Shown here one piece after another: positions 8,797 to 45,707 of a stretch of 64,000 bases of DNA. The notes under the pieces are model-generated. The model was not told where the DNA came from, did no database searches, and was given only the letters and a program-made list of their open reading frames with translations. How positions within the stretch are numbered: position 1 is the stretch's first letter; each line of letters starts with the position of its first letter. Both the position numbers and the translations under genes were made by a program. The DNA comes from Anaeromyxobacter diazotrophicus (GTDB lineage: Bacteria > Myxococcota > Myxococcia > Myxococcales > Anaeromyxobacteraceae). The DNA lies in NCBI RefSeq assembly GCF_013340205.1, contig NZ_BJTG01000003.1, positions 372,001 through 436,000 on the forward strand. Direction: 5' to 3'.

Positions 8797-9519
8797 ATGC
8801 ACACGAGACTCCTCGCCGCCGCCACCCTCCTCGCCGCCGTCGCGAGCGCCTCCGCCACCCCGCCCGATCCGGCCCGCGCCGGGCGCGGGCGGCACGCCTA
8901 CGACCGGTACTGCATCTCCTGCCACGGGGTCGACGGCGACGGCCGCGGCCCGAGCGCCGACTGGATCGACCCGCAGCCGCGCGACTTCACGAGCGGCACC
9001 TTCAAGTTCCGCTCCACGCCGAGCGGCACCCTCCCCACGGACGCCGACCTCTACCGCACGATCACGAACGGGCTCCATCGGACCTTCATGCCGCGCTGGG
9101 AGCCCATCACGGAGCTGGAGCGGCGCGACCTCGTGCAGGTGGTGAAGGCCTTCTCGCCGAAGTTCACGAGCGAGCCGCAGGGGACGCCCATCACCATCCC
9201 GCCGCGCCCCGCCTTCACGCCCGAGCTGGTCCAGAAGGGGAAGGGGGTGTGGGACAAGGTGCAGTGCGCCGCCTGTCACGGGGACACCGGCAAGGGCAAC
9301 GGCCCCTCCGCCTCGACGCTGCGCGACGACTGGGGGCGACCCATCGAGCCGCGCGACTTCACCCGCGGCTCGCTCAAGGTGGGCGACACGCCCGAGGACC
9401 TGTACCGGACCTTCATGACCGGCCTCAACGGCACGCCCATGCCCTCCTTCGCGGAGTCCATCAACGAGGAGGACGCCTGGGCGCTCGTCGCCTACGTGAA
9501 GTCGCTGCGGCGGGACTGA
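8797..9519 (+). CDS. Periplasmic dihaem cytochrome c
   Basis: 240 residues with a cleavable signal peptide (AVASASA, residue 20). Two cytochrome c domains: CISCH (C39, C42, H43) with distal M98 (RTFMPRW), and CAACH (C157, C160, H161) with distal M215 (NGTPMPSF). Both domains contain the RDFTxGxxK loop also seen in the lipoprotein at 6467, showing duplication. Nine bases after the barrel gene, SD GGGGAA. Last gene of the oxidase operon; a mobile carrier between the barrel, the lipoprotein cytochrome and CoxB is the simplest role. Confidence 0.85.
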   Translation: MHTRLLAAATLLAAVASASATPPDPARAGRGRHAYDRYCISCHGVDGDGRGPSADWIDPQPRDFTSGTFKFRSTPSGTLPTDADLYRTITNGLHRTFMPRWEPITELERRDLVQVVKAFSPKFTSEPQGTPITIPPRPAFTPELVQKGKGVWDKVQCAACHGDTGKGNGPSASTLRDDWGRPIEPRDFTRGSLKVGDTPEDLYRTFMTGLNGTPMPSFAESINEEDAWALVAYVKSLRRD

Positions 9520-31345: not shown

Positions 31346-32779
31346 ATGGTGAACGACTACCGCTACGACGATCGGACCGTGCTCGGGTTCATCCTGTCGT
31401 CGATGTTCTGGGGCGTGGTGGGCATCCTCATCGGCCTGCTCATCGCCACCCAGATGTTCGCGCCGGGGCTGAACTTCGCGCCCTACCTGACCTTCGGGCG
31501 GCTCAGGCCGGTGCACACGAACGGCCTCGCCTTCGGCCTGGGCGTCGGGGCCATCTTCGGCCTCAGCTACTACATCGTGATGCGGCTCTGCCGCCGGCCG
31601 CTCGTCTTCCCGCGGCTGGCGCGGCTGCAGCTGTGGCTCTTCAACCTGGGCATCGCCGCGGCGGCGGTGACGCTCATGATGGGCTACACGCAGTCGCTCG
31701 AGTACGCCGAGCTGGAGTGGCCCCTCGACATCGCCATCGTGGTGCTGTGGGTGATGTTCGCGGTGAACGTCTTCGCGACGGTGGTGAAGCGGCGCGAGGA
31801 GGAGATGTACGTCGCGCTCTGGTACGTGCTCGCGACCGTGCTCGCCATCGCGGTGCTCTACATCGTGAACAACCTGTCGATCCCGGCCGGCGCCTGGAAG
31901 AGCTACCACCTGTTCGCGGGCGTGAACTCCGCCAACGTCGAGTGGTGGTACGGGCACAACGCGGTGGGCTTCGTCTTCACGACGCCCATCCTGGCCATGT
32001 TCTACTACTTCCTCCCCAAGACCACCGGGCTCCCCATCTTCAGCCACCGGCTGTCGATCGTGGCCTTCTGGTCGCTCGTGTTCGGCTACCTGTGGACCGG
32101 CGCGCACCACCTCGTCTACACGCCGCTCCCCACCTGGCTGCAGACGCTCGGCATCTGCTTCACGCTCTTCCTCATCGCGCCGTCGTGGGGCTCGGTGGTG
32201 AACGGCTACTACACGGTCGGCCAGGACTGGGACCGGATGCGGACGAACTACCTGACCAAGTTCTTCGTCCTCGGCATCACCTTCTACGGCCTGCAGACGG
32301 TGCAGGGGCCGACGCAGTCGCTGCGCGCCGTGTCCCAGCTCATCCACTACACCGACTGGGTCCCGGGCCACGTGCACATGGGCACCATGGGATGGGTGAC
32401 GATGACCATCGCCGCCTCGATCTACTACGTGGTGCCGAAGATCTACGGGACGGCGATCTACAGCGAGAAGCTCGCGAACGTGCACTTCTGGCTGGTGCTG
32501 GTCGGGCAGCTCATCTTCTCGGTGACGATGTGGATCACCGGCATCCAGCAGGGCGCGATGTGGAAGGCGATGGAGCACGGGAAGCTCAAGTACACCTTCG
32601 TCGAGGGGCTCGCCCGTAACTATCCGTACTACCACCTGCGCGCGCTGGGCGGGGTCGTGTTCACCGCCGGCATGCTGTGCTTCGTCTGGAACGTGCTCAA
32701 GACCATCCAGCAGGGCCGCGCCCTCGAGGCGTCCGCCGCCACCCCGGAGCCGAAGCCGCTGACGGCGGCGCAGGCGTAG
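31346..32779 (+). CDS. ccoN: cbb3-type cytochrome oxidase subunit I
   Basis: 477 residues, 12 helices. Low-spin haem b His in RPVHTNGLAFG, CuB ligands in WWYGHNAVGF and GAHHLVY, haem b3/b ligands in PGHVHMGTMGW, active-site Tyr region VVNGYYTV. This is the catalytic subunit of the high-affinity oxidase. First gene of the cco operon; the 5' region (31171-31345) has a possible -10 TATCCT at 31290-31295 but no FNR box, which is unusual since cbb3 is normally anaerobically induced. Ten bases before the next gene. Confidence 0.95.
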   Translation: MVNDYRYDDRTVLGFILSSMFWGVVGILIGLLIATQMFAPGLNFAPYLTFGRLRPVHTNGLAFGLGVGAIFGLSYYIVMRLCRRPLVFPRLARLQLWLFNLGIAAAAVTLMMGYTQSLEYAELEWPLDIAIVVLWVMFAVNVFATVVKRREEEMYVALWYVLATVLAIAVLYIVNNLSIPAGAWKSYHLFAGVNSANVEWWYGHNAVGFVFTTPILAMFYYFLPKTTGLPIFSHRLSIVAFWSLVFGYLWTGAHHLVYTPLPTWLQTLGICFTLFLIAPSWGSVVNGYYTVGQDWDRMRTNYLTKFFVLGITFYGLQTVQGPTQSLRAVSQLIHYTDWVPGHVHMGTMGWVTMTIAASIYYVVPKIYGTAIYSEKLANVHFWLVLVGQLIFSVTMWITGIQQGAMWKAMEHGKLKYTFVEGLARNYPYYHLRALGGVVFTAGMLCFVWNVLKTIQQGRALEASAATPEPKPLTAAQA

Positions 32780-32789
32780 GGAGGATCCC

Positions 32790-33755
32790 ATGGCCGGAAC
32801 CATCTACCGCAAGCCGATCCTGTTCTCGGTGGTGGCGCTCGTCGTCATCCTGGCGGGCACCGTCGCGACCATGTTCTACCCGATGCTCCGCAAGGACATG
32901 CACCCGCGGCTCGAGGCGCTGCGCGCCTACACGCCGCTCGAGCTGGCGGGCCGCGACGTCTACCAGCGCGAGGGGTGCATGGGCTGCCACACGCAGACCG
33001 TGCGGCCGCTCGCGAGCGAGGTGGCGCGCTACGGCGACTACTCGAAGGCGGGCGAGTTCGCCTACGACCGCCCGCACCTGTGGGGCTCGAAGCGGACCGG
33101 TCCGGACCTGGCGCGCGAGGGGGGCCTGCGGCCCGACGACTGGCACGTGCGCCACTTCCGCCACCCGCAGGCGCTGGTGCCGCGCTCGAACATGCCGGCC
33201 TACGCCTTCCTGGAGCAGGCGAAGCTCGACCCCGGGAGCGTGAAGGCGCACTACCGCGCGCTCGCGAGCCTGTACGCGCCGGCCGAGTTCGCGGCCCAGG
33301 ACGGCGACTTCGCCGCGCTCGCGGACAAGACCGAGCTGGACGCGCTCGTCGCGTACATGCAGTGGCTCGGCCACGCCGTCCCGCGAGAGTGCCAGGTGGG
33401 CGACCTCGCCGCGGTGAACCCGCTCGCCGGCCGCCGCGAGGCGGTGCAGCGCGGCATGGCGGTGTACGCGAACAACTGCGCGCAGTGCCACGGCGACCAC
33501 GGCGAGGGCATGGCGGGCGCGGTCCCGAGCCTCATCGACGAGGAGTTCCTGGCGCAGCAGGGCGACGTGCCCGACGGCACGTACTTCGGCCTCATCTCCT
33601 GCGGCAGCGACGCCAAGAAGAAGATCGGCCGCCCCGGCGATCCGGGCGGCGGCATGACCGCCTTCGGCGGGCAGCTCGCCGACGAGGACATCTGGTCCGT
33701 CATCAGCTTCATCCGCTCGCAGCAGGAGCACGAGCGCACCGAGTCGCACCACTGA
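32790..33755 (+). CDS. ccoO: CcoO fused to a CcoP-like single-haem cytochrome c domain
   Basis: 321 residues, about 100 longer than normal CcoO. Membrane anchor residues 10-31. CcoO domain with CMGCH (C63, C66, H67) and distal Met in RSNMPAYAFL (M135), ending near 195. A second cytochrome c domain follows (about 215-312): CAQCH (C230, C233, H234), PSLIDEEFL and distal-Met segment GGGMTAFGG (M289), the pattern of the C-terminal CcoP haem. So the electron-entry haem of CcoP has been joined to CcoO, and one of the usual two CcoP haems is missing. SD GGAGG; follows ccoN. Confidence 0.9.
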   Translation: MAGTIYRKPILFSVVALVVILAGTVATMFYPMLRKDMHPRLEALRAYTPLELAGRDVYQREGCMGCHTQTVRPLASEVARYGDYSKAGEFAYDRPHLWGSKRTGPDLAREGGLRPDDWHVRHFRHPQALVPRSNMPAYAFLEQAKLDPGSVKAHYRALASLYAPAEFAAQDGDFAALADKTELDALVAYMQWLGHAVPRECQVGDLAAVNPLAGRREAVQRGMAVYANNCAQCHGDHGEGMAGAVPSLIDEEFLAQQGDVPDGTYFGLISCGSDAKKKIGRPGDPGGGMTAFGGQLADEDIWSVISFIRSQQEHERTESHH

Positions 33756-33766
33756 GGAGCCGAGCC

Positions 33767-34057
33767 ATGGCCAACCCGATCGAGCTGGACGACGGCGTGG
33801 AGCAGCTCCAGGCGAAGGAGACCGCGCACGCGGTGCCGGTGGGCATCTGGGCGCTCTTCGGCGGCCTCGTCGCCTGGGGCGTCTACTACTTCATCGCGTT
33901 CATCGGCTGGGACCAGACGGGCGAGCTGTCGGGGCAGTCCACCGCGCTCGGCACCAACGTCGCCCACACGGTCGCGTACACCGCCATCCCGGCGGCGGCC
34001 ATCGTGGCGCTGGCGGTGGGGATGGCGCGCCGGAGCGCCCGCGGCAAGAGGAAGTAG
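33767..34057 (+). CDS. Orphan CcoP N-terminal membrane domain (no haem)
   Basis: 96 residues. The segment VPVGIWALFGGLVAWGVYYF matches the FixP/CcoP N-terminal domain, which normally leads into two cytochrome c domains. Here the protein ends after a second helix (about 68-86) and a basic tail, with no CxxCH. SD GAGGAG. Placed directly after the CcoO fusion, it looks like the anchor half of a split CcoP. Annotated without a gene symbol because the function of the separate anchor is unknown. Confidence 0.8.
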   Translation: MANPIELDDGVEQLQAKETAHAVPVGIWALFGGLVAWGVYYFIAFIGWDQTGELSGQSTALGTNVAHTVAYTAIPAAAIVALAVGMARRSARGKRK

Positions 34058-34198
34058 ATGAACACCGGCGAGCTCGGGTACCTGGCGTTCGGGGCGGCGC
34101 TGGTGGCGCTCTTCGGCGCCATCGTCCGCCACTACTACGCGCGGGGCCGGCGGGCGAAGGTGGAGCGCGCGAAGTACAAGATGCTCGATGAGGATTAG
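34058..34198 (+). CDS. ccoQ: CcoQ/FixQ-like small subunit
   Basis: 46 residues: one membrane helix (residues 7-24), then a basic stretch YYARGRRAKVERAKYK and an acidic end MLDED, the FixQ/CcoQ layout. Starts at the base after the preceding stop and overlaps the start of ccoG by 11 bases. CcoQ stabilises the cbb3 complex. Assignment rests on size, topology and position rather than strong sequence identity. Confidence 0.65.
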   Translation: MNTGELGYLAFGAALVALFGAIVRHYYARGRRAKVERAKYKMLDED

Positions 34199-35429
34199 GT
34201 GGGATCGCCTGCGGACCTGGCGCCGCCTCGCCGAGGTGGTCCAGGCCGCGGCCGTGCTCGGCCTGCCGTTCGTGAGGATCCGGGGGGAGAGCGCGCTGCG
34301 CCTCGACGTCCCGAGCCTGACCCTGCTCGCCTTCGGCGCCCGGATCGGGCTCGACGAGCTCCTGGTGGTGCTGGCGGCCGCGCTGTTCCTGCTCTTCGGC
34401 TTCCTCCTCGCGACGCTGCTCTTCGGCCGCCTCTGGTGCGGCTGGGCCTGCCCGCAGACGGCGCTGCTCGACCTCACCGGGCTCCTCGACCGCGCCCGGC
34501 GGCGGGGCGGCTGGCGCGCCGTCGCGGCGCTCCTCGCCCTCGCCGCCGCGTCCGCGCTGGTGGGCGCGAACCTGCTCTGGTACTTCGTCCCGCCGGGCGA
34601 CTTCCTGGCGCGGCTCGGCGCCTTCGCCCTGGGGCCGGTGCTCGGCCCGGCCTGGCTCGTGCTCTCCGGCGTCGTGTTCGCGGACCTCGCGCTCTGGCGG
34701 CACGGGTTCTGCGCCACCACCTGCCCCTACGCCAAGCTGCAGGGCGCGCTGCTCGACCGCCACTCGCTCGCCATCGCCTACGACCGCCGCCGCGCCGCCG
34801 ACTGCGTGGACTGCGGGGCCTGCGTCCGCGTCTGCCCGGTCGGCATCGACATCCGCGACGGCCTCCAGGCGGCCTGCGTCGCGTGCGGGGCCTGCGTCGA
34901 CGCCTGCGCCCCCATCATGAAGAAGCTCGGGCGCCCGGCGCGGCTCGTCGGGCACTTCTTCGGCGTGCCCGGGACCGGAGCCCGGCCCCTCCGCCCGGCG
35001 GCGGTCGCGCTCGGGGTGCTCACCGCCGGCGCCCTGGCCTTCACGGCGGCGGTGGCGGCCGAGCGGAGCCCGCTCGAGGTGACCGTCACGGGCGGCGGCG
35101 AGCGCGCGCCGCGCCGCGAGGCGACCGGCGAGCTGACGAGCGGCTTCACGCTGGCGCTCGAGAACCGGGGCCGCGCGCCGCTCGCGCTGCGGCTCGCCGC
35201 GACAGCGCCCGGCGTCGAGCTGGCGCTCCGGCCCGAGGCCGTGCAGCTCGCGCCGGGGGAGCACCAGCGGGTGCGGGTGCGGGTCGTCGCGCGCGGGCTC
35301 GGGCCCGAGGCGCGGCAGCTCCGCGCCGAGCTGTCGGTGTCGCCGGCGGTTGGGCCGGGCGGCGCGGAGGCGCACGCGCCGCCCGTCACCCGGGCGCTCC
35401 TCGTGGACGTCCCCGGGGCGCGGCGATGA
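34188..35429 (+). CDS. ccoG: cbb3 assembly cytochrome c oxidase accessory protein CcoG (FixG/RdxA)
   Basis: 413 residues, polyferredoxin-type membrane protein. Helices near the N-terminus, the conserved CGWACPQT loop, HGFCATTCPYAK, then two 4Fe-4S clusters (CVDCGACVRVCPVGIDI and CVACGACVDACAPIM), one more helix and a C-terminal immunoglobulin-like FixG domain (residues about 300-410). CcoG reduces Cu(II) to Cu(I) for cbb3 assembly. Overlaps ccoQ and the next gene (ATGA). Confidence 0.92.
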   Translation: MRIRWDRLRTWRRLAEVVQAAAVLGLPFVRIRGESALRLDVPSLTLLAFGARIGLDELLVVLAAALFLLFGFLLATLLFGRLWCGWACPQTALLDLTGLLDRARRRGGWRAVAALLALAAASALVGANLLWYFVPPGDFLARLGAFALGPVLGPAWLVLSGVVFADLALWRHGFCATTCPYAKLQGALLDRHSLAIAYDRRRAADCVDCGACVRVCPVGIDIRDGLQAACVACGACVDACAPIMKKLGRPARLVGHFFGVPGTGARPLRPAAVALGVLTAGALAFTAAVAAERSPLEVTVTGGGERAPRREATGELTSGFTLALENRGRAPLALRLAATAPGVELALRPEAVQLAPGEHQRVRVRVVARGLGPEARQLRAELSVSPAVGPGGAEAHAPPVTRALLVDVPGARR

Positions 35430-35965
35430 GGGCGCTCCTGGCGGTGGGCGCGCTGGCCGCCCTGCTGGCGGTGGGGGCGGTGGTCGCGGCGATCGTCCTC
35501 GGCCACCGCACCGCCGAGCCGACGGTGGTGGCGGATCCCTACGAGGCGGGGCTGCACTACGACGAGGCGCACCACCAGCACGACGCCGCCGCGGTCGGCC
35601 CGCGCGCCGCCCCGCGCTGCGACCCCGCCCGCGCGCCCTGCGCGCAGCGGGTGGCCGGCGCGACGGTCGCGCTCGCCGTGGCCCCCGCCCCGGTCCTCAT
35701 GAAGGACCTCGCCTTCACGGTGGAGGTGACGCCGCCTGCCGCCGCCGGCGCCGGCGCGGGGCGCCTCGCGCTCTCGATGCCGGGCATGTACATGGGCGAG
35801 CACCCGGTGGCGCTCGCGGCGGACGGGCCGGGCCGCTGGCGCGGGACCGGGGTGCTCGTGCGCTGCCCGAGCGGGCGGCGCGGCTGGGCGGCGGACGTGG
35901 AGGTCCCTTCCGCCGGCGGCGCGCCGCTGCGCGCCACCTTCACCTTCGAGGCGGCCGAGCGATGA
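35426..35965 (+). CDS. ccoH: CcoH/FixH-like assembly protein
   Basis: 179 residues. N-terminal membrane helix (about 4-25), then the FixH opening DPYEAGLHYDEA and a periplasmic beta domain ending in FTFEAAER. It contains a MPGMYMGEHPV segment rich in Met and His that could bind copper, unusual compared with standard FixH but close to YtkA-like/copper-chaperone domains. Coupled by ATGA overlaps on both sides. FixH is needed for stable cbb3 assembly. Confidence 0.8.
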   Translation: MRALLAVGALAALLAVGAVVAAIVLGHRTAEPTVVADPYEAGLHYDEAHHQHDAAAVGPRAAPRCDPARAPCAQRVAGATVALAVAPAPVLMKDLAFTVEVTPPAAAGAGAGRLALSMPGMYMGEHPVALAADGPGRWRGTGVLVRCPSGRRGWAADVEVPSAGGAPLRATFTFEAAER

Positions 35966-36636
35966 GGGAGGCGCTCCTCCTCGCCGCCACCACCGGGCTC
36001 CTCGGCGGCCTCGGCCACTGCACCGCCATGTGCGGGCCGCTCGTCGCCTCGCTCGGCCTCGCCGCGCCGGAGGCCGGCCTGCGGCGCGCGCTCGCCGGCC
36101 AGGCGCTCTACCACGCGGGCCGCGTCACCACCTACGCGTGCATCGGCGCGGCCATGGGGCTCACCGGCTCCTTCGTCAACACCGCCGGCCGGCTGGCGGG
36201 GCTGCAGGACGCGGTGGCGGTCGGGGCGGGCCTCCTCATGGTGCTCATGGGGTTGGGGGCGGCCGGGGTCCTGCCAGCCGCCCGGCGCACCGAGGAGCGG
36301 CTCGCCGGGAAGGTGTTCCGGGCGGTGCGGGCGGTGGTGGAGGGCGGCGGGCCAGGCCGCACCTACGCGCTCGGCCTCACCCTGGGCTTCCTCCCCTGCG
36401 GCCTGTCGTACTCCGCGTTCGTGGGGGCCGCCGCCACCGGCGGGCTGCCGCAGGGGCTGCTCTTCGCGCTCGTCTTCGCGCTCGGGACGGTCCCGGCGCT
36501 CCTCGCCGTGGGCGGCGCGGCGGCGGCGCTCTCGCCCCGCCTGCGCGGGGCGCTGCGTCGGGCCGGCGGCGTCGCGGTGGCCGCGGCGGGCGTGCTCTTC
36601 GCGCTGCGCGGGCTCGGGATCCATGCTCCGCTGTGA
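35962..36636 (+). CDS. SafE/TauE-like permease, copper-handling CcoS/CcoI partner type
   Basis: 224 residues, six to seven helices, UreH/DsbD-like 'sulfite exporter TauE/SafE' family. Conserved GHCTAMCGP in helix 1 and GFLPCGLSYSAF in helix 4, the paired Cys motifs of the subfamily found in cbb3 operons next to CcoI. Overlaps ccoH by ATGA and ccoI by 14 bases. Probably moves copper or reducing power for oxidase assembly. Confidence 0.82.
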   Translation: MREALLLAATTGLLGGLGHCTAMCGPLVASLGLAAPEAGLRRALAGQALYHAGRVTTYACIGAAMGLTGSFVNTAGRLAGLQDAVAVGAGLLMVLMGLGAAGVLPAARRTEERLAGKVFRAVRAVVEGGGPGRTYALGLTLGFLPCGLSYSAFVGAAATGGLPQGLLFALVFALGTVPALLAVGGAAAALSPRLRGALRRAGGVAVAAAGVLFALRGLGIHAPL

Positions 36637-39070
36637 CCACTGCCTGCTCGCGTTCCCCGAGCGCGAGGCGGTGCGGGCGGAGGTGGGCGGCGCCGCGCGC
36701 GTGTTCTGCTGCACCGGCTGCCGCGGCGTGGCGGAGCTCATCGCCGCCGAGGGGCTGTCCGGGTTCTACGCCGGGCGGCGCTGGGACGAGCCGGGCCTCT
36801 TCGCCGATCCGGAGCGGCCGGTGGACGCGGGCGCGTTCCGCGACGCGGTCCGCCGGGCGGACGGGCTCGCCGAGCTCGACGTCTACATCGACGGCATCCG
36901 CTGCGCCTCCTGCGTGTGGCTCAACGAGCGGCTCCTCGCCAGGCTCCCCGGCGTCGCCTCGGCGCGGGTGAACTACGCCACCCACCGGGCGCGGGTGCGG
37001 TGGGATCCGGCGGTCGCCTCGCTGGAGGGGGTGCTGGGGCGGATCCGGGCCGCCGGCTACGAGCCCAAGCCCTACACCGAGAGCGAGCGGCAGCGGGCGC
37101 AGGACGCCGAGACGAAGGACCTGCTCATCCGGCTCGGCACCGCCTTCTTCCTCTCCACCCAGCTCATGATCTACGCGGCCGCCCTCTACGCCGGGTACTT
37201 CCAGGGGATGGAGCCCGGCCTGCGCCGGCTGATGGAGGTCATCGCCCTCGGCCTCACCCTGCCGGTGTTCCTCTACTCCGGGGCGCCCTTCCTGCGCTCC
37301 GCCTGGCGCGGCCTCCGCGCCGGCCGCTTCAACATGGACGTGCTCATCGCGCTCGGGTCGGGCGCGGCGCTCGCCTACAGCGTCTACCAGATGGCGCGCG
37401 GCGGGGAGGTGTACTTCGACACCGCCGCCATGATCGTCACGCTCGTGCTGGCGGGGCGGTACGTCGAGGCGCGGGCGCGCGGGCGCGCCTCGGAGGCGGT
37501 GGCCCGGCTGTCGCGGCTCCTGCCCCGGGAGGCGCGGCTGGCGGGGCGCGGGCTGGTCCCGCTCGCGGCGGTGGCGGTGGGCGACCTCGTCGAGGTGGTG
37601 CCGGGCGAGCGGGTGCCGCTCGACGGTCAGGTGGTGGAGGGGGCCTCGGAGGTGGACGAGGCGCTCCTCACCGGCGAGGCGCGCCCGGTCCCCAAGGCGC
37701 CCGGCGCCGCGGTCATCGGCGGCACGGTCAACCAGCACGGAGCGTTCACGTTCCGGGTCACGCGGGTCGGCGAGGACACCGTGCTGTCCGGGATCGCCAG
37801 GGCCGTGGAGTCGGCCCAGGCGGAGAAGCCGCGGCTGCAGGCGCTGGCCGACCGGGTGACGGGCTGGTTCGTCCCGGCGGTGCTGGTGCTGGCGGTGGCC
37901 ACGGTGGCGCTGGACCTCGCGCGCGGCGGGCCGGCGCACCAGGCGCTCATGACCGGGGTCGCGGTGCTCGTCATCGCCTGCCCGTGCAGCCTCGGGCTCG
38001 CCACCCCCATCGCCGTGCTGCTCGCCAGCGGCGAGGCGAGCCGGCGGGGGCTCCTCGCGCGCAACGGCGACGTCCTGGAGCGCGCCGCCGGCGCCACCGT
38101 GGTCGTGCTCGACAAGACCGGCACGCTCACCCGCGGCCGGCCGGTGCTGCGCGAGGTGGTGCTCCTCGGCCGGAACCCGGCCGGCTCGCGCGACGCCCTG
38201 GTGCGGGTCGTCGCCGCCGTCGAGCGCCGCTCCGAGCACAGCCTCGGCCGCGCCGTGGTGGAGGCGGCCCGGGCGCTCCCGGGGCCGGAGCCGAAGGTGG
38301 AGGGCTTCCGCGCCGTCCCGGGGCGCGGGGTGGCGGGCGTGGTGGTGGACCCCGGCGCGGCGACCGGCGCGGGGCTCCGGGTCGAGGTCGGCAACCGCGC
38401 GTTCCTGAGCGAGGCCGGCGTCGCGCTGCCCGCGGAGGCGGACCGCGCGGCGGAGCCGCACGCCGCCGCCGGCGAGACGGTGCTGTGGGTCGCGGTGGAC
38501 GGCGCCCTGGCCGCCCTGCTGGTCGTCTCCGACGTGCTGCGCGAGGAGGCGCCGGAGGCGCTGCGGGAGCTGCGCGCGCTCGGGCTCGAGATCGCCATCG
38601 TGAGCGGGGACGCCGCGGGGACGACGCGCGCGGTGGCGGCCCGGGCCGGGATCGACCGGGTCCTCGCCGAGGCGAGCCCGCTCGACAAGGAGCGGGAGCT
38701 GGCGCGCCTGCAGGCCGCGGGGGCCCGGGTCCTCATGGCCGGCGACGGCGTCAACGACGCGCCGGCGCTCACGCGCGCGGACGTCGGGGTGGCCATGGGC
38801 CGGGGCACCGACGTGACCCTGGAGAGCGCCGACGCGGTGCTGGTGCGGGACGACCTGCGGCTGCTCCCGGCGCTGGTGCGCCTCGGGCGCCGCACCACCC
38901 GCGTCATCCGCCAGAACGTGTTCTGGGCCTTCTTCTACAACGTGGTGGCGATCCCGCTCGCGATCGCGGGGACCCTCCACCCCATCGTGGCCGCCGCGGC
39001 GATGGCGGCCTCCTCGCTGTTCGTGGTGGGCAACTCGCTCAGGGTGCGGACGTGGACCTCGGCTTCCTAA
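36623..39070 (+). CDS. ccoI: Copper-exporting P1B-type ATPase for cbb3 assembly
   Basis: 815 residues. N-terminal YHS-like/zinc-ribbon-like metal segment (CDHCLLAFPE, CCTGCRG), heavy-metal domain with CASC (GIRCASCVW), eight helices, A-domain TGE in LLTGEARPV, CPC in ACPCSLGLATP, phosphorylation site DKTGTLT, GDGVNDAPAL hinge. CcoI/CopA2 supplies periplasmic copper to the oxidase. Start overlaps the permease gene; end overlaps ccoS by 19 bases. Confidence 0.93.
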   Translation: MLRCDHCLLAFPEREAVRAEVGGAARVFCCTGCRGVAELIAAEGLSGFYAGRRWDEPGLFADPERPVDAGAFRDAVRRADGLAELDVYIDGIRCASCVWLNERLLARLPGVASARVNYATHRARVRWDPAVASLEGVLGRIRAAGYEPKPYTESERQRAQDAETKDLLIRLGTAFFLSTQLMIYAAALYAGYFQGMEPGLRRLMEVIALGLTLPVFLYSGAPFLRSAWRGLRAGRFNMDVLIALGSGAALAYSVYQMARGGEVYFDTAAMIVTLVLAGRYVEARARGRASEAVARLSRLLPREARLAGRGLVPLAAVAVGDLVEVVPGERVPLDGQVVEGASEVDEALLTGEARPVPKAPGAAVIGGTVNQHGAFTFRVTRVGEDTVLSGIARAVESAQAEKPRLQALADRVTGWFVPAVLVLAVATVALDLARGGPAHQALMTGVAVLVIACPCSLGLATPIAVLLASGEASRRGLLARNGDVLERAAGATVVVLDKTGTLTRGRPVLREVVLLGRNPAGSRDALVRVVAAVERRSEHSLGRAVVEAARALPGPEPKVEGFRAVPGRGVAGVVVDPGAATGAGLRVEVGNRAFLSEAGVALPAEADRAAEPHAAAGETVLWVAVDGALAALLVVSDVLREEAPEALRELRALGLEIAIVSGDAAGTTRAVAARAGIDRVLAEASPLDKERELARLQAAGARVLMAGDGVNDAPALTRADVGVAMGRGTDVTLESADAVLVRDDLRLLPALVRLGRRTTRVIRQNVFWAFFYNVVAIPLAIAGTLHPIVAAAAMAASSLFVVGNSLRVRTWTSAS

Positions 39071-39267
39071 TCGGCCTCTCGCTCGCGCTCGGGCTGGCGG
39101 CCTGGCTCTTCTTCCTCTGGTCCGTGAAGAGCGGGCAGTACGAGGATCCCGAGGGGCCGAAGTACCGCATGCTGGAGGACGATCCCGAGGAGGCGCCGGG
39201 GCGGGCGAAGCAGGACGCCGAGTCCTCGGAGAGGGCTAGCGGACCGCCGCCGCGCGCTCGGCGCTGA
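39052..39267 (+). CDS. ccoS: cbb3 maturation protein CcoS
   Basis: 71 residues. One N-terminal helix, FFLWSVKSGQYEDPEGPKYRML and an acidic DD end, the CcoS signature, followed by a 25-residue extra charged tail. GTG start inside the end of ccoI. The 3' end overlaps the convergent gene at 39236-40864 by 32 bases. CcoS is required for haem and copper insertion into CcoN. Confidence 0.85.
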   Translation: MDLGFLIGLSLALGLAAWLFFLWSVKSGQYEDPEGPKYRMLEDDPEEAPGRAKQDAESSERASGPPPRARR

Positions 39268-43313: not shown

Positions 43314-45707
43314 ATGCTCCACGCCTATCGAGCTCACTGGATCGCCCTGCTCGCGGTCACCGCCGGCGGGCTGGCCGTGATCGCCGCCTACGCGCCGCGG
43401 ATCGAGGCGACCGCGCCGCCGATCCCGGAGCAGGTGGTCGGCCCGCGCGGCGAGGTGGTGCTCGACGGCGCGGCCATCCGGCGCGGGCAGAACGCCTGGC
43501 AGTCGATCGGCGGGGAGGAGGTGGGGTCGGTCTGGGGGCACGGCGCCTACGTCGCGCCCGACTGGAGCGCCGACTGGCTGCACCGCGAGAGCGTCTTCGT
43601 CCTCGACGGCTGGGCGCGGGCGGCGGGGGCGAAGAGCTACGAGGCGCTGGCGCCCGAGCGGCGCGCGGCGCTGCGCGAGCGCCTGCGGGAGCAGATGCGG
43701 ACGAACACCTACGACGCGAGCACGGGGAAGGTGACGCTCGGCGCCGAGCGGGCGGAGGCCTTCTCCGCCAACGCCGCGCACTACGCGCGGGTGTTCCGCG
43801 ACGGCCAGGACGCCTACGCGATCCCGCGGGGCGCCCTCTCGGACCCGGGCAAGCTGCGGGATCTCGCCGCGTTCTTCTGGTGGACGAGCTGGGCGGCGGG
43901 GACCCAGCGCCCGGGCGAGGAGGTGACCTACACCCAGAACTGGCCGCACGAGCCGCTCATCGGGAACCGGCCCACGGGCGAGGCGCTGGTGTGGAGCGTG
44001 GTGTCGTTCGTGCTGCTGCTGGCCGGGATCGGCGCGCTCGTCTGGTACCAGGGCGGGCGGGAGGAGCACGGCCAGCTGGCCAGCGCGCTGCCCGAGCGCG
44101 ATCCGCTCTTCGGGCTCGAGCCGACGCCCTCGCAGCGCGCGACCGTGAAGTACTTCTGGGTGGTGGCGGCGCTGTTCGTGGTGCAGATCGCGCTCGGCGC
44201 GGTGACCGCCCACTACGGGGTGGAAGGGGCGGGGTTCTACGGCTTCCCGCTCGCGGACGTTCTCCCGTACTCGGTCGCGCGGACCTGGCACACCCAGCTC
44301 GGGATCTTCTGGATCGCGACCGCGTGGCTGGCGACGGGCCTCTACGTCGGCCCGGCCGTGAGCGGGTTCGAGCCCAAGGGGCAGCGCGCGCTGGTCAACG
44401 TGCTGTTCGCGTGCCTGCTCGTCATCGTCGTCGGATCGCTCGCGGGGGAGTGGCTCTCGGTGAAGCAGCGGCTCGGCGGCGACTCCTGGTACTGGTTCGG
44501 ACACCAGGGCTACGAGTACGTGGACCTCGGCCGGTTCTGGCAGATCTTCCTCTTCGCGGGCCTGTTCATCTGGCTCTTCCTCATGGCGCGGGCGCTGTGG
44601 CCGGTGCTGCGGCGGGGCGCGGACTCGATGGACTCGGACCAGGCCGCCCCCGCCGCGGCGGTGGCCCGCGCGCCGCTGGGGCCCGGCGCCGACACCCGGC
44701 CGCTGCTCGGCCTCTTCCTCCTGTCGGCGGTCGCCATCGCGCTGTTCTACGGGGCCGGGCTCATGTACGGGCAGCACAGCCACCTGGCCATGGTCGAGTA
44801 CTGGCGCTGGTGGGTGGTGCACCTGTGGGTCGAGGGGTTCTTCGAGGTCTTCGCGACGGTCGTGATCGCGTTCCTGTTCGTGCGGCTCAAGCTGCTCGAG
44901 GTGCACAAGGCCACCACCGCCGTCTTCTTCTCGACCGCCATCTTCCTCGCCGGCGGCATCATCGGGACCTTCCACCACCTGTACTTCTCCGGGACGCCCT
45001 CCGGCGTGCTGGCGCTGGGCGCCGTCTTCAGCGCGTTCGAGGTGGTCCCGCTCGTGCTGGTGGGCCTCGAGGTGTGGCAGAACGTGCGGCTGGCGCGCGC
45101 CAAGGACTGGCTGGCCGCATACCGCTGGCCCATCTACTACTTCGTCGCCGTCGCCTTCTGGAACCTGGTCGGCGCCGGGCTGTTCGGCTTCTTCATCAAC
45201 CCGCCCATCGCGCTCTATTACATGCAGGGGCTCAACACGACCCCCGTGCACGGGCACACCGCGCTCTTCGGCGTGTACGGCATGCTCGGCATCGGGCTCA
45301 TGCTCTTCTGCCTGCGCGCGCTGCGCCCCGGGGCGGCCTGGAAGAGCTGGCCGCTGGCGCTCTCGTTCTGGCTCATCAACGGCGGCCTGGCGCTGATGGT
45401 GCTGCTGTCGGTGCTGCCGGTCGGGCTCATGCAGGCGTGGGCCTCGGTCGAGGTCGGGACCTGGTGGGCGCGGTCGGCCGAGTTCATGAAGACCCCGCTC
45501 ATGGACACGCTCCGCTGGCTGCGCGTGCCGGGCGACACGATCTTCGCGGTGGGCGCGCTCGTCCTCGGCTGGTTCGTGCTGGGCCTCGCCACCGGCTGGT
45601 CGCTGGAGCGCGGCGGGTCCGTCGAGGCCGGCTCGACCGAGGTGAAGCTCGGCGGTGGCTCGGTGCCGGGCGCGGCGCGCGCGGCGCCGGAGGACGGGCG
45701 CCGTTAG
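43314..45707 (+). CDS. norZ: Quinol-dependent nitric oxide reductase (qNOR)
   Basis: 797 residues, 14 helices, fused NorC-like N-terminus without CxxC haem and NorB-like core. N-terminal periplasmic domain has GQNAWQSIGGEEVGSVWGHGAYVAPDWSADWLHRE. Metal ligands: haem His in ARTWHTQLG, FeB His and Glu in HLWVEGFFEVFA, paired His in GTFHHLYF, His pair in PVHGHTALFG. It reduces NO to N2O with quinol. SD GGGAG. A TAGATT at 43275-43280 may be the -10. No nitrite reductase or NO sensor gene adjoins it, so it is probably a detoxification enzyme. Confidence 0.95.
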   Translation: MLHAYRAHWIALLAVTAGGLAVIAAYAPRIEATAPPIPEQVVGPRGEVVLDGAAIRRGQNAWQSIGGEEVGSVWGHGAYVAPDWSADWLHRESVFVLDGWARAAGAKSYEALAPERRAALRERLREQMRTNTYDASTGKVTLGAERAEAFSANAAHYARVFRDGQDAYAIPRGALSDPGKLRDLAAFFWWTSWAAGTQRPGEEVTYTQNWPHEPLIGNRPTGEALVWSVVSFVLLLAGIGALVWYQGGREEHGQLASALPERDPLFGLEPTPSQRATVKYFWVVAALFVVQIALGAVTAHYGVEGAGFYGFPLADVLPYSVARTWHTQLGIFWIATAWLATGLYVGPAVSGFEPKGQRALVNVLFACLLVIVVGSLAGEWLSVKQRLGGDSWYWFGHQGYEYVDLGRFWQIFLFAGLFIWLFLMARALWPVLRRGADSMDSDQAAPAAAVARAPLGPGADTRPLLGLFLLSAVAIALFYGAGLMYGQHSHLAMVEYWRWWVVHLWVEGFFEVFATVVIAFLFVRLKLLEVHKATTAVFFSTAIFLAGGIIGTFHHLYFSGTPSGVLALGAVFSAFEVVPLVLVGLEVWQNVRLARAKDWLAAYRWPIYYFVAVAFWNLVGAGLFGFFINPPIALYYMQGLNTTPVHGHTALFGVYGMLGIGLMLFCLRALRPGAAWKSWPLALSFWLINGGLALMVLLSVLPVGLMQAWASVEVGTWWARSAEFMKTPLMDTLRWLRVPGDTIFAVGALVLGWFVLGLATGWSLERGGSVEAGSTEVKLGGGSVPGAARAAPEDGRR

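Follow-up and report, generated by a model that had tools for sequence, protein, structure and literature searches.

The cbb3-type oxidases respire oxygen with high affinity. In their canonical forms electrons pass from the haems of CcoP to the haem of CcoO, from there to haem b, and finally to the b3-CuB centre (PMC7876108). Very small subunits are known in this family, and CcoM of Pseudomonas stutzeri, with 36 amino acids, is one of them (PMC10433244). Two further cbb3 operons are relevant here. The accessible part of a report on Anaeromyxobacter dehalogenans 2CP-C describes a cbb3 cluster that is homologous and syntenic with that of Chlorobi, and proposes a horizontal origin for it (PMC2330069); the accessible part of another describes a Prosthecochloris cbb3 operon in which tauE is present and CcoP is short, with 138 amino acids and one haem (PMC10158934).

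We analysed a 64,000-nucleotide stretch of Anaeromyxobacter diazotrophicus DNA (hereafter the window), which corresponds to positions 372001–436000 of contig 3 of a 4.83-Mb, 100%-complete assembly. The window very probably encodes a complete cbb3-type (C-family) oxidase, one of a separate branch whose CcoP has been dismantled, with a haem domain carried by CcoO and the anchor persisting as a haem-free "mini-CcoP" that in Anaeromyxobacteraceae is mostly fused to a second small peptide. All the genes lie on the + strand. The catalytic subunit CcoN (477 amino acids; PF00115, E 2.8e-108; TIGR00780, 533 bits) is encoded at 31346–32779, and is followed by the ccoO-cytochrome c fusion gene (32790–33755), the gene for a 96-residue, two-helix, haem-free protein (33767–34057) and ccoQ (34058–34198). 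The 46-residue CcoQ matches FixQ (PF05545) with E 2.3e-5, at 24.7 bits against a gathering score of 29, and one relative reaches 37 bits (E 3.2e-9). Its gene overlaps by 11 nucleotides the start of ccoG (34188–35429), which encodes a FixG/RdxA-like maturation ferredoxin (TIGR02745, 229.7 bits, under the cut-off of 316.7). Next are ccoH (fixH; 35426–35965; PF05751, E 2.5e-5, over the gathering score) and a gene for a SafE/TauE-like membrane protein (35966–36636), which has no Pfam match and was recognised by inspection and by synteny with tauE of the green sulfur bacterial cco operons. The last two are ccoI (36623–39070), for a copper P-type ATPase with E1-E2_ATPase, HMA and ATPase-cat_bd domains, and a ccoS-like gene for a small protein (39067–39267), identified in the ORF list by position and sequence inspection. 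With CcoQ and the ccoG, ccoH, safE, ccoI and ccoS-like genes all in the operon, the assembly set is therefore full. The initial annotation of this locus had the fusion and the anchor right and overlooked CcoQ. Elsewhere in the window, the exact FNR/CRP-type palindrome TTGATGTGCATCAA occurs at 2038–2051 as its only perfect copy, and precedes genes of an aa3-type oxidase, not the cbb3 operon.

The CcoO-cytochrome c fusion proposed in that annotation is confirmed. The frame at 32790–33755 is uninterrupted over its 321 codons, and its product matches FixO over residues 5–164 (E 1.9e-65) and then a class-I cytochrome c over residues 218–311 (PF00034/PF13442; Cytochrom_C, E 1.2e-13), with exactly two CXXCH motifs and thus two c haems. 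It also matches the CcoO chains in the PDB (E about 1e-47). The CcoO-haem CXXCH is at residues 63–67 (32976–32990), with Met135 (33192–33194) as its likely axial ligand. The fused domain, including an NPLAG linker, spans residues 206–321 (33405–33752) and has its CXXCH at residues 230–234 (33477–33491) and its likely axial ligand at Met289 (33654–33656). In an alignment of 46 fusions from several phyla, C63/C66/H67 and M135, as well as C230/C233/H234 and M289, are invariant, and because both sites are so strictly kept both haems of the fusion are almost certainly in use. An AlphaFold2 model of the fusion, built without haem (pLDDT 79, with low confidence at residues 63–105, the CcoO haem loop), resembles the 3MK7 CcoO and, weakly, cytochromes of the c6/c552 type; the model supports a CcoO fold and a c-type cytochrome fold, not their mutual placement. 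The fusion as such is already catalogued as NCBIfam PRK14486 (NF011054), to positions 2–294 of which residues 2–315 of the window protein align at 405 bits; the curated cut-off of 447 is reached by six of its Anaeromyxobacteraceae relatives.

In the CcoN tree a 100/100 branch separates all fusion operons from the operons with dihaem CcoP or CcoNO; thus, the Anaeromyxobacteraceae oxidase is unlike that of the other sampled Myxococcota. The window CcoN aligns to chain A of 3MK7 with E 2.1e-140, and P. stutzeri residues H60, H207, H257, H258, H345, H347 and Y251 are kept at window positions 57, 204, 254, 255, 342, 344 and 248, so that all the histidines that ligate CuB, haem b3 and the low-spin haem are conserved, as is the cross-linked tyrosine. 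P. stutzeri Glu323, on the other hand, is Gln320 in the window protein. This site, which we take to be residue 323 in P. stutzeri CcoN numbering and which presumably has its role near the proximal histidine, carries Gln in every one of the 51 clade members and Glu in all 33 of the comparison sequences (canonical and CcoNO). With 17 further positions it makes 18 at which CcoN is diagnostic of the clade. On the Glu323 point the oxidase is therefore a variant branch of the C-family and not a textbook member, and, judged by these diagnostic positions, the clade is more than a rearrangement of subunits.

Two Caldimicrobium loci (L091/L092) are nested within the fusion clade in this tree, beside a fused member (100/99), and a tree in which the fused rows are monophyletic without them is rejected (p-AU 0.0013). 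In both, CcoO is unfused, and CcoP consists of a mini-CcoP joined to the haem domain that the window has on CcoO, NPLAG linker included. At least one transfer of the haem domain between the C-terminal ends of CcoO and the anchor has thus taken place inside the clade. The initial annotation took the fused domain for one of the haem domains of CcoP, and this is not demonstrable, since profile comparison favours small soluble cytochromes. It is a serious possibility, which we would put just short of even, that a soluble cytochrome c serving as electron donor was captured by CcoO, the haem domains of CcoP being lost independently. A profile of the Nitrospirota fused domains gives 64–82 bits with small secreted cytochromes of the same cco clusters, more than with any CcoP domain outside the clade, and about 52 bits with monohaem CcoP, 40 with domain 1 of canonical CcoP and 30 with domain 2; in the haem-domain tree, too, the fused domains stand apart, with the soluble domains and those of CcoP together across a 99/91 branch. 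Against capture, Caldimicrobium bears this very domain, linker included, on an anchor of the FixP_N type, although its lineage is nested and the arrangement may be a return, and the haem-domain tree, at about 109 columns, cannot root the question of origin. Capture and the splitting of a CcoP would lead to the same working end product by different histories. The small secreted one-haem cytochromes lie 2–3 kb downstream in the Nitrospirota cco clusters (L056:11069, L057:11086, L058:11087, L060:11091, L064:6301 and 6648, and L075:11277); after the Caldimicrobium CcoP they are the nearest non-fused relatives of the fused domain, and they are candidate electron donors.

A normal dihaem CcoP elsewhere in the genome was the finding on which the initial annotation had staked its interpretation; a search of the whole 100%-complete assembly gave no further FixP_N protein and no match to the CcoP model above its cut-off, and the interpretation is not refuted. 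The genome likewise holds no second FixO over cut-off, and none of four other PF00115 proteins (L002, L004, L005 and L006) matches the CcoN model. They were rejected as candidates for a second cbb3 oxidase: L002 is CtaD, and the remaining three of these have a NOR-like look. A further protein, L001, has an A-family-like PF00115 score. One NOR-like PF00115 protein is encoded in the window at 44139–45542, and the other two of the three in the genome are on contigs 4 and 5. A secreted dihaem cytochrome c at 8797–9519, which matches the CcoP model twice, weakly, was considered as a hidden CcoP and set aside: it has no FixP_N and lies within the aa3-type oxidase cluster.

Since the genome has no other FixP_N protein and no CcoP above cut-off, two c haems are the best reading of the gene content for this oxidase. 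We think it improbable that some other cytochrome binds to the complex and contributes a third in trans, which would make the path functionally a three-haem one. Other small cytochromes are encoded in the genome, the most CcoP-like of them (53.8 bits) being a secreted, 104-residue monohaem protein adjoining an NrfD-like gene (G000:C3:476626-476907), and one or two small secreted cytochromes occur within the Nitrospirota cco clusters; but the window operon contains no such gene, and the candidates have no FixP_N and look like diffusible donors. The suggestion that the oxidase has two haems instead of three holds as to the number and not as to its being a peculiarity of this operon. In most of the other Myxococcota whose CcoO match is strong, the match lies in a frame of about 700–900 residues, which means that CcoO is fused to CcoN, and the loci inspected encode CcoNO with a one-haem CcoP and so also two c haems, a number that is therefore ordinary in the phylum.

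The first part of the 96-residue protein (residues 1–58; 33767–33940) contains the FixP_N helix and no haem site. The whole protein matches FixP_N with E 0.018 and the mini-CcoP part with E 0.0035, at 15–17 bits against the PF14715 gathering score of 24.9. It is a divergent copy, in which GWDQ replaces the GW(S/T)Q of its relatives and which is four residues shorter past the helix. Those relatives are clearer: 12 of 12 match FixP_N at E<1, the best at 1.4e-9, and one from Nitrospirota scores 33.5 bits (E 3.5e-8). Because the relatives match up to 1.4e-9, we regard the protein as a FixP_N-type anchor. Outside Anaeromyxobacteraceae mini-CcoP has about 60–65 residues and one helix, with the consensus DNIxxFEAKETxxKLPxGWLILFWGLIxWGxYYFxxYTPxxSGWSQ. 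Its profile finds segment 49–103 of CcoP in 3MK7 (E 0.013), including the GW(S/T)QEK that follows the helix, and also recovers the N-termini of haem-bearing CcoPs elsewhere (E 2e-4 to 4e-4). By these homologies mini-CcoP is a CcoP truncated right behind its helix. That the 96-residue protein is instead an unrelated small membrane protein, CcoP having simply been lost, is highly unlikely: the window anchor on its own does stay under the Pfam gathering score, but FixP_N is matched by every one of its 12 relatives, and their profile finds both haem-bearing CcoPs and the CcoP of 3MK7. The free, CcoP-type anchor of the initial annotation is thereby borne out. Among the 48 loci with room downstream of the fusion, 47 have a haem-free mini-CcoP after it, in 45 of them no more than 60 nt from the stop codon. 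The sole exception is a Nitrospira sp. locus (L078:7950-8891) with no mini-CcoP within 8 kb downstream; there, mini-CcoP may not be needed, or its gene may lie elsewhere.

The second part of the protein has its own counterpart. Nitrospirota encode, between mini-CcoP and CcoQ, a conserved 30-residue, one-helix peptide (MDISIxATIxFT...), and a profile built solely from free copies of the Nitrospirota type locates a separate gene for it in Caldimicrobium, a Spirochaetota MAG and one Anaeromyxobacteraceae genus. In other Anaeromyxobacteraceae the same profile meets the C-terminal half of the 96-residue protein, with best values of 2.5e-6 to 1e-5; its match to the window copy is weak (0.16, where chance matches begin near 1), and the part concerned, residues 61–96 (33947–34054), carries the motif T-x-x-(F/Y)-T. 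The 96-residue protein is therefore two micro-subunits fused in frame, so that the single, separate anchor described earlier is CcoP-type in its first part only. The peptide does not turn up in the canonical and CcoNO operons searched. The free peptide is under purifying selection, with nonsynonymous below synonymous change in 122 of 122 informative pairs, and conservation is confined to the named frame. It has no Pfam match, and a PDB search to E 10 finds no chain, and for want of a PDB match its identification as CcoM or another solved subunit was rejected. From its position and from the fusion we infer that the peptide is an oxidase subunit.

This architecture is not confined to the window. 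Comparison of cco operons across Myxococcota places the fusion in 20 of 24 Anaeromyxobacteraceae genomes, that of the window included (in one it is split over two contigs), with a mostly CcoN-fused CcoO in the others of the phylum that have a strong CcoO match. The best 80 loci from a scan of 84,980 species genomes include the fusion in many Nitrospirota, in Deferribacterota, in one Spirochaetota MAG and in one Rokubacteria MAG, with no Chlorobi among those 80. The Deferribacterota loci (L088-L090 and L093) have the fusion and a mini-CcoP of 62–65 residues, and in two of them (L088 and L090) a CcoQ of 48–51 residues is visible. Thus, what had been taken for a local rearrangement is a character of a multi-phylum clade, whose fusion PRK14486 already covers. 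A decayed or mis-assembled operon, in which ccoO and ccoP had become joined through a change of the stop or frame between them, can practically be dismissed, because the fusion is seen in 19 further Anaeromyxobacteraceae genomes and in dozens of Nitrospirota and Deferribacterota and its haem ligands are invariant. By these comparisons the locus is real, conserved and functional-looking. Longer forms also occur: a Nitrospirota MAG (L087:292-1716) has a CcoO with three consecutive cytochrome c domains and four CXXCH motifs, followed by mini-CcoP, the 30-residue peptide and CcoQ, and a Rokubacteria MAG (L085:2087-3265) has a CcoO with two fused cytochrome c domains. A longer fusion upstream of CcoO in the latter is a wrong-frame artefact, only CcoO and the two haem domains being real, and an apparent CcoN-CcoO-cytochrome triple fusion (L019/L020) was rejected since its ccoN stretch is open only in the wrong, high-GC frame.

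We propose that the oxidase works as follows. A soluble or membrane cytochrome c would reduce the fused haem, which would stand in for the haem pair of CcoP, and electrons would then pass to the CcoO haem, to haem b, and to haem b3-CuB in CcoN. Assembly factors and CcoQ reportedly contact CcoP. It is probably for this reason that the anchor has been retained without its haem domain: through its helix, mini-CcoP would go on making those contacts to CcoN, CcoQ and CcoH on which assembly depends. More tentatively, and with rather less confidence than we give to capture, the clade may be a horizontally spread C-family branch with a rebuilt electron entry, a CcoP reduced to an anchor, a mobile haem domain, a new 30-residue subunit and an altered active site, with Gln for Glu323 throughout; its substrate preference, or its chemistry at haem b3, may then differ from that of the cbb3 enzymes characterised to date. 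In the searchable open-access literature there is apparently no description of a split-CcoP clade that has both a second micro-subunit and a replaced active-site residue.

Recognising the split form may make "partial" oxidases complete in Nitrospirota, Deferribacterota and Anaeromyxobacteraceae. Such enzymes are described as incomplete in genome papers. For Deferribacter, a study from 2026 lists ccoN and ccoO as present and ccoP and ccoQ as "not evidenced" (PMC13186404); the other genera of the phylum suggest that this partial cbb3 oxidase is an annotation miss. The clade is also a natural experiment in three respects: on the role of the CcoP helix once its haems are gone, on the number of c haems that a cbb3 oxidase requires (one MAG locus has three domains fused to CcoO), and on the purpose of Glu323 in CcoN, given that the whole clade has Gln.

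Compared with the canonical ccoNOQP oxidases (P. stutzeri, 3MK7; Rhodobacter capsulatus, 6XKW), the window oxidase shares the CcoN ligands and cross-linked Tyr, the CcoO haem domain, CcoQ, the CcoGHIS maturation set and the FixP_N helix; its relatives also have the GW(S/T)Q motif. The window oxidase differs in having no haem-bearing, FixP_N-anchored dihaem CcoP, and instead a haem domain on CcoO, a bare anchor, and Gln in place of E323. The NF011054/PRK14486 model, a "putative bifunctional cbb3-type cytochrome c oxidase subunit II/cytochrome c", has the architecture of the fusion over its full length and is silent on mini-CcoP and the 30-residue peptide. That peptide is like CcoM in being very small and tied to a cbb3 oxidase, and unlike it in that the two have no detectable homology. 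With the green sulfur bacterial and A. dehalogenans operons, compared by description, there is synteny and a short CcoP, and the accessible parts of those reports describe no CcoO fusion with a separate anchor; a distinct oxidase in Anaeromyxobacteraceae is in line with the horizontal origin proposed there for the A. dehalogenans cluster. The oxidases of other Myxococcota and of Bacteroidota that combine CcoNO with a monohaem CcoP resemble this one in having two core c-type haems; they differ in that CcoN and CcoO are fused, the haem is on the FixP_N anchor and E323 is kept, and they lie across the 100/100 branch.
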